Positions 18,953-28,626 of a stretch of DNA of 64,000 nucleotides are shown here, piece after piece (within the stretch, counting starts at the first letter, position 1; each line of letters opens with the position of its first letter). A program made the position numbers and the translations under genes. The notes under the pieces are model-generated. The model worked only from the letters and a program-made list of their open reading frames with translations. It did not search any database and was not told the origin of the DNA. The stretch is from positions 5,766,001-5,830,000 of the forward strand of contig OY725490.1 of NCBI GenBank assembly GCA_963281255.1, in the 5' to 3' direction. The DNA comes from Aphrocallistes beatrix (lineage: Eukaryota > Porifera > Hexactinellida > Sceptrulophora > Aphrocallistidae).

Positions 18953-19433
18953 TACATTACCCGGACAAAAGTATTCGACCACCATGGAAACCGCCATACA
19001 AATAGTATTAAAGTGGATCTATTCATAAAGGAATATATACTCAAACTGTAAGGAATACTCTGGAAATATTTCAAATTCGTAAACTACACATCCTAATTAC
19101 TAATAATTGATAGCCTCAGCTTAATTACTAACTCCCAAGTTAATAAATATCAACATTTGATACTTGATGCTACTTAACCCAAGTCACAGCCATTATATAT
19201 GATGGCGTTTAGTGACACAAAGTGGCAATAGGTTGATAATTTTCTACATAAGAATAAGTAATTGAGTTGAAACTCTCAATTATGAGTAATTAGAATGTGT
19301 AGATTACGAATTTGAACTAAAAAACGAGTATTTTCTACTGTTTAAGGACATGTTCCTTTTTTACAAGATCTAATTTAATACTATTTGTATGGAAGTTTAG
19401 GTGGTGGTCGAATACTTTTGTCCGGGTAGTATA
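18953..19433. mobile_element. Tc1-type MITE, TACCCGGACAAAAGTATTCG subtype
   Basis: TIRs of about 29 bp, inverted at the two ends, followed by GACCACCA. The interior is internally inverted (GAATTTGAAATATTTCCAGA-type and AATTACTAATAATTGA words), so the whole element folds back. It is very similar to 25086-25564 and 28152-28626. Confidence 0.85.
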
Positions 19434-23794: not shown

Positions 23795-24000
23795 ACACTT
23801 TGTGTCCGCCAGAGGCGCCCTTCGTTCACCTGGAGTTACATTAATTAATTATTAGGGAGACAACATCTCGAAATACGTCTGTCCTACTGTTATATTCGAT
23901 ATCGCACAAAAAATCACCAAATTTTTCAATTTTTAAAATGTATGCATAATTTAGACGTCATAACAATGATGAGTCATCATTTGTTAATGATAGTTACAAC
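23795..24000 (-). mobile_element. HINE copy, left part, split by the P-like element
   Basis: Hairpin region (tttgtgtccgccagaggcgc) through ACGTCATAAC and GAGTCATCATTTG to GATAGTTACAAC. The same copy resumes at 26259 after the insertion. The 3' tip is lost. Confidence 0.8.
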
Positions 24001-24786
24001 CACAGCATTCTATATACTAAGGCAATGGCACTCTATTGAAATTTTGGACAATGGATTGTCATTACCATCGACCTTCAAAGTACAATGTAATAGCTATATA
24101 CTATATCGGTGTGTTTCTACTGCGCTGCTACTATTATTAATCATCAGTTTAAATAATTTACCGCACCCCAGCCTATTTCAATATTAGAATATTATAAGTC
24201 AACAAATAGATTTTAATAAGTCAAACCATATATTACAGTATAATACGTTAGTATAGAACAAATAAAATGATTCATTCTCTAAGTAATCGTTGCAGCAGCA
24301 GCAGCAATATATTTCACCATCCTAAACGTCCAGCTGGATATAACATCGAAAAGTACAATAGCTTCAGTCTTCTACACAAACTTCTAACAGTAAGATGATC
24401 TAAAAAACAAAGAAAAATTAGTTGTATTTTTTAAGCTTAGTATTATCCCTATTTAAAACCATAAAATTGTAATTGCGGACTCTCTTTAACAAGATTATAT
24501 TTGACCATGTAACACATAATTTCTTTAATATGTCCCGATTCTAAACCCCACAAAAGCAACAATCATTCCAAACATCACTATATTTCTCGGCAATGATTGT
24601 CATAGAAATTAGTACCAACAATTACGGGATTGTGCAGAATAGAATTTCTTGCTGAGGGAATCACAGCTATCAATAGTCAGAAAGGCTTTATACAAGATAG
24701 TAATATACTTCACCACACAAGAAGAAGGATATTTAAGAGAACCTCGATCTAGTGTAACTTAGATATAATACAACTAAGATTCGAAA

Positions 24787-25756
24787 TCATAAACTTAGCC
24801 TCGGTCTCTTGAAATCAGCTCGACTTTTCTTGTATGCATCCTGCATCCTCTTCTCCTCTTTATTGTCTAGAGATAGCCTTTGGGTTTTAGCAACGGCATC
24901 TGTGAGATAGGTTGGACGATATGGAAAGATGCTTGGAACTGCAAATTTCTTTAGAACAACTTTTTTCCTGGGCATCTTGATCATCTCAACTCCGTTATAA
25001 TATTCAATATTTCCCTCAATATCTTCTTCGCGGAAGTGGTGTATACAGACCTATAAAGAGATAAATAATTATACATACTACCATACAGTACCCGGACAAA
25101 AGTATTCGACCACCACAGAAACCGCCATACAAATAGTATTTTAAGTGGGTATATTCATAAAGGAATATGTACTCAAACCGTGAGGAATACTCCATTTTTT
25201 ATTTCAAATTCGTAGACTACACTTTCTAATTACTCATAATTGATAGCCTTAACTCAATTACTAACTCCCAAGTTAATAAATATCAATATTTGATACTTGA
25301 TACTACTTGTCCCAAGTAACAGCCATTATATATGATGGCGATTAGTGACACAAAGTGGCAAAGGTTGAGAATTTTCTACATAAGAATAAGTATTTGAGTT
25401 GAAACTCTGAATTACGAGTAATTAGAATGTGTAGTTTACGAATTTGAAATAAAAATAGAGTATTTTCTACTGTTTGAGGACATGTTCCTTTTTTGAATAG
25501 TTCTAATTTAATACTATTTGTATGGAAGTTTTCGTGGTGGTTGAATACTTTTGTCCGGGTACTGTATATTGCGGTACAAATTAATATAGCAACTTACCAA
25601 AATTCGTTTATTCTTCTCATAGTCTCTTTTCTGTCGTGGAATCGCTCGAATCCACTTTACACGAGTTTCAACATCAATTGGAAAGGAAAAAGTAGGCACG
25701 TATGAATCAGCTTGACTATGATAATTCGACTTACAACCAGGTATTAGGCATGTCAT
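24787..25756 (-). CDS. THAP-domain protein, two exons, 140 aa
   Basis: Exon 1 is 25598-25756 (53 codons) and exon 2 is 25050-24787 (87 codons plus stop). Donor TTG|GTAAGT and acceptor tttatag|GTC give a phase 0 intron of 547 bp, 479 bp of which is a MITE. Together they form a full THAP C2CH zinc-finger domain: CLIPGC near the start, WIRAIPR, VCIHHF (the last Cys and His) and AVPSIFP, the conserved AVPTIF-type end. A basic tail of about 45 residues follows (RKKVVLKK lies just before AVPSIF; ADFKRPRLSL ends it). The start at 25756 places the first Cys at residue 3, as in THAP proteins. No RNase-H-like transposase domain follows. By analogy with truncated Drosophila P products it could bind element ends and repress. 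That role is inference. Confidence 0.8.
25086..25564. mobile_element. Tc1-type MITE inside the THAP intron
   Basis: CAGTACCCGGACAAAAGTAT at the left, inverted at the right, with TA on both sides. It fills nearly the whole intron, so the ancestral intron was about 68 bp. Nearly identical in structure to 18953-19433 and 28152-28626. Confidence 0.92.
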
Positions 25757-26186
25757 GTTGAATAAGTGATGATGCGGAACAAATATAGCATTAATAGGAA
25801 GTAACAAATAAATAATAACAATAATTAAAATATATTATCAACATTGAACACAAAATTTATGGGTGGGTAAATGTTTTTCATATTATGTGTTTATGACAGA
25901 AAATTTTCTAAATCATCACAAATATTGAAGCTAATATATAGTTTGCATGTTGCTACATACAATCTCTATGCTGATGATGGATTAAACTTATTCTTAGAAC
26001 ACTATAGGCGGTTAAAATTCGCGCGAACAATACGACTGAATTGAATATTCGAATACTATATGCAAAACTGAAGTTTTATAGAACAGGCAAAATTATACCA
26101 AAATATGTTCTAATGAGTAGGCACTTGATACTACATAAATGTTGAAATCATTTTAATGTTTTAACAAAAAGTTTTAGTATAAAGTA
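25757..26186 (-). promoter_or_regulatory. Putative promoter region of the THAP gene within the P-like element
   Basis: About 430 bp of AT-rich sequence between the right TIR and the THAP start codon. No defined motif is identified. It is called only by position. Confidence 0.3.
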
Positions 26187-26258
26187 GTCCGATGGTATTG
26201 ACAATCCATGCTACAAAATTTTGATAGAGTACCATTGCCTTAGTATAAAGAATGCTAT

Positions 26259-26430
26259 GTTACAACATATGTATATGTGCTTTATTAATTAACACATCCA
26301 TTAATATTTCAGCCTACTATCACCTAAAATGACTGAGTTATTGTCGAAAAACTGAAATTTCTAATAATAAAAAAGGTGACAATAACGTCATAATTCAATG
26401 ATGACTCGACAATTTCGTCTGAGGTCAGAA
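26259..26430 (-). mobile_element. HINE copy, right part
   Basis: It continues the copy begun at 23795: GTTACAACATATG, TTTCAGCCTACTATCACCTA and ACGTCATAATTCAATGATGA. It stops at gaggtcagaac, where a + oriented 5' end begins. Confidence 0.8.
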
Positions 26431-26469: not shown

Positions 26470-26509
<40 letters not shown>

Positions 26510-27622
26510 CAGCCCTCGCCGTTCGCGAGTTTGTCATTCGCGGTTTCGACTATTCGCGGATTTTTTTTTTAGTCTTGTTTTGCTATTCGCAACTCGTTCC
26601 CTCGACTATTCGCGGTTTTCGTTACTCTCTTCGGTAGTTTCATGGGCTACCATAAGGCGATAAACTTATACGTACTCCATATTATCCTGGGAATATCATT
26701 TACTGTTTCTATTGTTCTATACTAATACTAGATTCTACTGTTTCTACGTATACTTATAATTTTCTACCCAACAATTACATCATGCCTAAGAGGAAGTTGG
26801 TTGGTGATTGTAAGGCTAGACTTTACTATTTAGATATTAGTACTTAGGCTAGCTACTAGTGGATCTATATCTTTCATTTATCACTTCATTTATTATCACC
26901 ATTTCACTTGTGCTAGTGTTTGTATCAGTATTACAGTTCAACTATTGAATCAATAACGTATTTAGCAAACTGTATCTAGAGTCGTTTTCATAATCTAGGA
27001 ACGTAACACCACTATTCACATTGAACTTAAGTCTGGCCGTTAGCAATTGTGTCATTCGGAGCAATTCTCAGGAACGTAACCCCCGCGAACGGCGAGGGAT
27101 ACCTGTATATATATATATCTGTAAGTTACAAATTGAATGAAGAAACTGGGAGGCACATAAAGCTGATTTTTGGCATGTGGTAGTCTTTTAGTTATGGCTC
27201 CAGTAAGTTCTGAACTCAGAGCAAAATGTCGAATCATCATGGAATTATGATGCCATTGTCACATTTTAAAAAGGTAAGCAATACAGTTATTCGAGCATAA
27301 CTCAGCCATTATAGAAGATAGAAGGCTGAAATTTTAATAGAATCTGTATACTAACATTTCTAACATATGATGCAACTACTATCTTCAAAAAATGGTGACT
27401 TATCACTTTGTCATGACGTCATCATTACTCATCCAAATTTTAAAAATTGATAAATTTGGTAATTTTTCGTGCGATATCGATTATAACAGTAGGACAAACG
27501 TATTTAGAGATGTTATTTCCCTTATAATTAATCAATGGTGAGCACAGGCGCCTAAAGGGTGTATCCGGCGGACACAAAGTGTCCGCCAGCCGCGCAGCAC
27601 AAGCAAGCGAAGCGCGCTTGTA
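26434..27622 (+). mobile_element. HINE copy, full length, with Tigger-like element in its TA tract
   Basis: 5' end TCCTTACTATTAAAACTCG at 26434, TA tract split by the element 26506-27105, body from CTGTAAGTTACAAATTGAAT and 3' end AGCGAAGCGCGCTTG at about 27620. The two sides of the insertion join in the correct order. Confidence 0.88.
26506..27105 (+). mobile_element. Tigger/pogo-like element (CCCTCGCCGTTCGCG type)
   Basis: TIRs of about 25 bp (CAGCCCTCGCCGTTCGCGAG at left, inverted CGCGAACGGCGAGGG at right) with TA on each side. At 26782 an ATG opens MPKRKLVGDCKARL, which resembles the N-terminus of pogo/Tigger transposases (MPKRK...), then a stop follows. It is therefore a 600-bp internally deleted derivative. 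A related copy at 30721-34872 carries the LTR element. Confidence 0.85.
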
Positions 27623-28151: not shown

Positions 28152-28626
28152 CACTCCCCTGATAAAAGTATTCGACCACCACGAAAACTTCCGTACAAAT
28201 AGTATTAAATTAGATCTATTAAAAAAGGAATATGTCCTTAAACAATAGAAAAAACTCTTATTTAGTTTGAATGCGTAATCTACACATTCTAATTACTCAT
28301 AATTGAGAGTTTCAACTCAATTACTTATTCTTATGTAAAAAATTATCAACCTATGCCACTTTGTGTCACTAAACGCCATCATATATAATGGCTGTGACTT
28401 GGGACAAGTAGCATCAAGTATTAAATGTTGATATTTATTACTTGGGTGTTAGTAATTAAGCTGAGGTTATCAATTATGAGTAATTATAATGTGTAGTTTA
28501 CGAATTTGAAATAAAAAATAGAGTATTCCTTACAGTTTGAGTACATATTCCTTTATGAATACACCTACTTTAATACTATTTGTATGGCGGTTTCTGTGGT
28601 GGTCGAATACTTTTGTCCGGGTACTG
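28152..28626. mobile_element. Tc1-type MITE in a HINE TA tract
   Basis: CACTCCCCTGATAAAAGTAT at the left and the inverted CCCGGACAAAAG end at the right, TA on each side. Same family as 18953 and 25086, opposite arrangement of the internal blocks. Confidence 0.9.

Follow-up and report, generated by a model that had tools for sequence, protein, structure and literature searches.

An internally deleted P-superfamily element with a THAP frame that is most probably a leftover in the glass sponge Aphrocallistes beatrix

We analysed a stretch of 64,000 nucleotides of the Aphrocallistes beatrix genome (assembly GCA_963281255.1, contig OY725490.1, positions 5,766,001 to 5,830,000), hereafter the window, in whose numbering all unprefixed coordinates are given. 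The element described here is very probably a defective, non-autonomous deletion derivative of the P superfamily, the THAP frame of which is a leftover and not a selected repressor. Its features are as follows, where L009 denotes a full-length relative found elsewhere in the assembly.

24001..26259, minus (coding) strand: internally deleted P-superfamily element, recognized by its termini, duplication and relatives
23994..24000, unstranded: left copy of the target site duplication, TTACAAC, 7 bp, supported by identical 7-mers in relatives and by empty sites
26260..26266, unstranded: right copy of the target site duplication, TTACAAC, 7 bp, with the same support
24001..24070, plus strand: terminal inverted repeat, coding-strand 3' end, matching its L009 counterpart at 65/70 positions
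26190..26259, minus strand: terminal inverted repeat, coding-strand 5' end, matching its L009 counterpart at 63/70 positions
24318..24750, minus strand: remnant of the transposase C-terminal coding sequence and the adjoining bases beyond it, containing one stop and indels (433 bases compared)
24750..24751, unstranded: deletion junction, where the copy lacks ~2155 bp of the L009 type
24787..25050, minus strand: THAP exon 2, with C55, H58, F59 and AVPSIFP, ending out of frame past a private single-base indel
25051..25597, minus strand: GT-AG intron of 547 bp, mostly a MITE
25086..25564, unstranded: the MITE in the intron, 479 bp, TA-flanked, with ends CAGTACCCGGACAAAAGTATTCGACCACC
25598..25756, minus strand: THAP exon 1, 53 codons, with C3, C8, P26 and W35

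Termini, target site duplication and insertion site

The inverted termini of about 70 bp given in the preliminary description were recovered as 70-nt arms that are 87% complementary, or 61/70 when the corrected right end is used. That end lies at 26259, one base beyond the earlier call of 26258, and the two ends are then symmetric; the start at 24001 stands. The relatives end in CATAG...CTATG and the left end of the window element reads CACAG, all of them CA-type ends, which we take to be a mark of the P superfamily.

An exact 8-bp duplication, GTTACAAC, had been proposed. The duplication is real and its length is 7 bp (TTACAAC), the eighth base of GTTACAAC being the element's own terminal G paired with a flanking G before the left copy. 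Fifteen complete copies, namely the window element and 14 of 20 fetched loci with both ends within reach, were compared at this point (L011, L023, L024, L025, L026 and L028 were dropped as they had no end pair within the limits used, and L016 and L017, with common flanks, do not count as independent). An 8-bp duplication with the right end moved inward by one base would require G at −8 in every copy; G stood there in 7/15 copies while the 7-mers were identical at 7/7 positions in 15/15, and an 8-bp duplication was thereby ruled out. Among the loci matching the transposase, seven have perfect 20-nt ends, and six of these carry the 7-bp duplication, one of the six (L029) being L009 again and the miss being L055. 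With both sets combined, the 7-bp duplication was found in 20 of the 21 P copies with both ends read. The P element proper (Drosophila P, zebrafish P-like) has an 8-bp duplication, unlike the 7 bp found here, and the P superfamily is still allowed because Galileo usually has 7 bp.

The left flank of the window element is a high-copy repeat with 2125 candidates in the assembly, 40 of which were scored and listed. All eight paralogous loci fetched from these 40 are contiguous across the insertion point, the BLAST match extending well beyond the join in seven and by six bases in L084, where other sequence follows. Since the site is uninterrupted in 8/8 copies, the window element is an insertion into an older repeat; the preliminary description had placed it inside a HINE copy. 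Another inverted-repeat element occupies positions 26488-27123 within the same host repeat, with GCCCTCGCCGTTCGCG-type ends beside (TA)n, and these ends resemble those of Tigger/pogo.

The empty sites also bear on the reading of the THAP frame as a domesticated host gene that chances to lie between repeats. THAP genes are reported to be often recruited by hosts (in the part of PMC10027918 consulted), but the similarity to a transposon with target duplications runs over the whole element, the downstream transposase remnant is broken, and the paralogous repeats are uninterrupted in 8/8 cases read. We rejected host domestication on the empty sites and give it next to no probability.

The full-length relative and the internal deletion

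The assembly searched comprises 100.5 Mb in 28 contigs. In it we found L009, the full-length relative that had been predicted to exist elsewhere in the genome, at G000:C1:10911018-10914923. This copy is 3906 bp long, with similar termini, a 7-bp duplication, a matching THAP exon 1 and a transposase frame of 935 codons without stops. Its core matches PF21787 (TNP-like RNase H, E 3.8e-8), the sole Pfam match up to E 1, and it aligns with the Drosophila P transposase at E 5.5e-9 as a single sequence (6p5a/6pe2) and at E 8.2e-32 as a 20-sequence profile (6p5a). Of the aligned catalytic positions, D320 is at least 90% conserved and D401, D438 and H441 are invariant among the 20 sequences, with E677 aligned in the single-sequence 6p5a comparison alone. 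L009 accordingly has the D, D, E and D(2)H of a P/THAP9-type transposase aligned, a part that the window copy itself lacks. The protein search of the assembly gave at least 82 matches from the 49 scored of 1523 candidates, and other long stop-free transposase frames are among the matches listed, for example one of 941 codons at C2:2480120.

The assignment to the P superfamily is thus borne out by a longer copy in which similar termini and a matching THAP exon 1 go together with a P-type transposase. The termini recur in other copies, and the transposase of the longer copy belongs to no other superfamily. The hAT superfamily, which has 8-bp duplications, was rejected because L009 encodes a P-type transposase and PF21787 is its only Pfam match. 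Five more P-type copies less like L009 (L031, L034, L035, L038 and L057) have CATAG ends and 7-bp duplications, and two further fragments of the window family lie at C15:1716810-1717352 and C18:2819177.

The window copy is of the L009 type minus ~2155 bp, with one base of shared sequence at the joint in the alignment. On the two sides of the gap it is 92.7% identical to L009 over 770 and 96.2% over 343 aligned bases, and the 716-base 5' part is 82.7% identical with many gaps. A second copy of this junction was not found in the assembly, where all 17 of the 17 candidates were scored and the window alone spans the junction. As no second junction copy was found, the deletion may have arisen in the window copy after insertion rather than before. 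The preliminary description had suggested a small element moved by a full-length relative; the relative exists, and movement of the window copy as a small element stays putative. L010 and L011 are separate deletions, both with broken THAP frames (2/2 sister deletion copies), by frame-breaking indels in exon 2 of L010 and by loss of the start codon and an indel in exon 2 of L011.

These data are consistent with the following history. A P-type element inserted into the high-copy repeat and produced the 7-bp duplication, as seen in the termini, the duplication itself and the empty sites. One internal deletion, which the alignment places between the THAP exon and the C-terminal remnant, would, before or after insertion, have removed the transposase core of ~2.15 kb from an element built of a THAP exon and a long transposase exon, probably through incomplete repair after excision as in Drosophila P. 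The single-base indel, the Tc1-type MITE in the intron and the point changes are all present in the copy as well, the order of their arrival being putative. An active transposase of the L009 family could perhaps still move the window copy in trans, its ends being close to those of L009, and the THAP frame would be a leftover whose domain is still unbroken, as the substitution pattern and the sister copies suggest.

Fate of the THAP frame

The joined THAP exons give 140 residues that match the Pfam THAP domain at E 1.9e-16 and carry the C2CH, P, W, F and P residues of the N-terminal THAP domain of the P superfamily. The intact two-exon THAP gene of the preliminary description was therefore recovered as a minus-strand frame with a GT-AG intron, C2CH residues and AVPSIFP, its splicing being predicted. 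The MITE in the intron is presumably of the Tc1/mariner type, judged by its ends. Copies or ends of this one MITE, with CAGTACCCGGACAAAAGTATTCGACCACC ends, occur in the window at 18955-19431, 25086-25564 and 28598-28626, two of them 477 and 479 bp long.

The stop of the frame falls 44 residues past AVPSIFP, within out-of-frame sequence. It comes early through an indel of one base that lies upstream of the deletion junction and is private to the window copy, being absent in L009, L010 and L011. The stop after a basic tail noted earlier is present, and the tail is out-of-frame sequence produced by the indel. A stop without room for a transposase was accordingly rejected as a design, since a single-base indel makes it.

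For the 130 codons before the indel, the window copy and L009 differ by 3.5 synonymous changes over 81 sites and 11.5 nonsynonymous changes over 309 sites, giving a dN/dS of 0.86 (Fisher p 0.75) with low power from n = 15 differences, and these tests take in the branch of L009 as well. The changes private to the window copy in the THAP exons were six nonsynonymous and two synonymous, and those private to L009, likewise without a sign of constraint, were five and two. These private counts come from the MAFFT four-way alignment, which looks sound in the THAP exons. Elsewhere it misplaced the sequence near the deletion and, in L011, the 5' end on the coding strand; its count over all columns (53 private changes in 1224) was therefore set aside in favour of region-wise pairwise comparison. 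By region, the substitutions between the window copy and L009 amounted to 5.7% in exon 1, 2.7% in exon 2, 3.5% in the C-terminal remnant, 5.9% in the 5' non-coding part and 6.1% at the 3' end, with one 36-base stretch unchanged. Exon 2 is therefore less diverged than the non-coding parts (5.9-6.1%) and exon 1 is not. Judged by sequence comparison, the THAP exons appear to have diverged from L009 much as unselected sequence would, a weak test that lends no support to a kept function.

The main alternative is that the copy acts as a natural repressor like Drosophila KP, its 140-residue THAP protein occupying the transposase sites in the termini and blocking transposition or transcription. Its THAP domain is complete, its GT-AG intron is canonical, a relative with an open transposase frame is still in the genome, and exon 2 is at 2.7% against 5.9-6.1% for the non-coding parts. 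KP (207 aa) and other THAP-retaining Drosophila deletions are described as repressors in the parts of PMC7776569 and PMC12393704 consulted, and a reference title in PMC7776569 states that KP dimerizes. The window copy keeps the DNA-binding domain and has an interrupted transposase, and it shows both properties used for putative P repressors in the consulted part of PMC12393704. Against this reading stand a stop 44 residues past AVPSIFP in out-of-frame sequence, a 479-bp MITE within the intron, the lack of any sign of selection on the THAP exons and the junction without a second copy found; a leucine-zipper segment was not noticed by eye in the 140-residue product. The repressor-only derivative of the preliminary description is thus permitted by the structure and finds no evolutionary support, given the dN/dS of 0.86 and the broken sister copies. 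We regard repression by this protein as improbable, and give the same low probability to the narrower reading of a young, naturally arisen THAP-only repressor acting on a P family that is still active in a non-bilaterian animal, KP-like but of independent origin; the THAP-only frame looks like decay.

A second alternative makes the window copy one member of a short, amplified and spreading family with THAP as its sole product. A related amplified family with many copies does exist, mostly 2.0-2.3 kb long (L027 is 2.7 kb and L012, with an insert, 3.95 kb), and compared with the window element one of its ends is 84-88% similar in a stretch of 86-89 bp, the opposite end 88-89% in 75 bp, and the interior only ~70%. 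However, THAP is broken in all 12 complete copies read (L012-L022 and L027): in exon 1 the match starts at residue 21 in 12/12, and exon 2 was not found in 4/12 and has two in-frame stops in 8/12. Spreading of this family therefore needed no THAP protein. We rejected an amplified THAP-coding family, as the window junction was single in the assembly search and THAP is broken in 12/12, and consider membership in one very improbable, leaving a defective deletion derivative with a leftover THAP frame as the preferred reading. Two further observations concern these copies. The insert within the P-type copy L012 holds a 287-codon open frame (1597-2460) whose product, judged by eye, looks like a Myb/SANT-type transposon protein. 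L016 and L017, on contigs C10 and C11 or vice versa, are P-type copies in opposite orientation and agree in the 14 bases that flank them left and right, which would reflect either a duplicated segment or insertion at one repeat site.

Target motif and comparison with known P-superfamily elements

From 19 copies with identical 7-mers (L017 being left out as a duplicate and L055 as unmatched), we obtained a palindromic target motif, nTAnGTnnnACnTAn, with both strands counted. At the key places T, A, G and T occurred 26, 31, 25 and 22 times of 38, counts that stand without a shuffled control and come from copies not all independent, as L014 and L038 have almost identical flanks. These two (L014 212-2473 and L038 526-4641) are members of different P families at nearly the same target, which resembles the host repeat of the window near 27485 and is perhaps a preferred site within that repeat.

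Among known systems, Galileo of Drosophila, also of the P superfamily, has mostly 7-bp duplications and a similar palindromic 15-bp target layout, with AANGT and ACNTT in the halves of the palindrome and a 7-bp core, and it encodes THAP and a 905-residue transposase with DDE and D(2)H (consulted part of PMC4168063). Its inverted repeats are long and foldback-like, in contrast to the ~70 bp here, and the likeness is one of features. The internal deletions of Drosophila P, such as KP, resemble the window copy in keeping the THAP exon and the ends, in the deleted core and in having a full-length relative in the genome. The window copy differs from Drosophila P in its 7-bp rather than 8-bp duplication and its ~70-bp rather than 31-bp inverted repeats (P features from the consulted part of PMC7776569), and from KP-type copies in that a separate indel ended its frame and any role in repression is putative. 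The zebrafish P-like elements share a P/THAP9-type transposase with internally deleted relatives, and unlike the window family they have 8-bp duplications and 13-bp inverted repeats (same part of PMC7776569).

Within sponges, the only species-named match among 26 relatives of the transposase is the 'Transposable element P transposase-like' protein of Oopsacas minuta (P0006), with 40% identity over 92% of the query stretch, which belongs to a different element than the window family. Literature searches on P elements and sponges, THAP9, and glass sponge genomes and transposable elements listed none that deals with P elements in glass sponges, and in term searches the main text of two glass sponge genome papers (PMC10280926 and PMC10282587) contains neither 'P element' nor 'THAP'. 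A glass sponge harbours a varied P superfamily, with several stop-free transposase frames and deletion derivatives like those of Drosophila, and the steady 7-bp duplication and the Galileo-like nTAnGTnnnACnTAn layout suggest that the choice of target may be a deeply conserved trait of the P superfamily.
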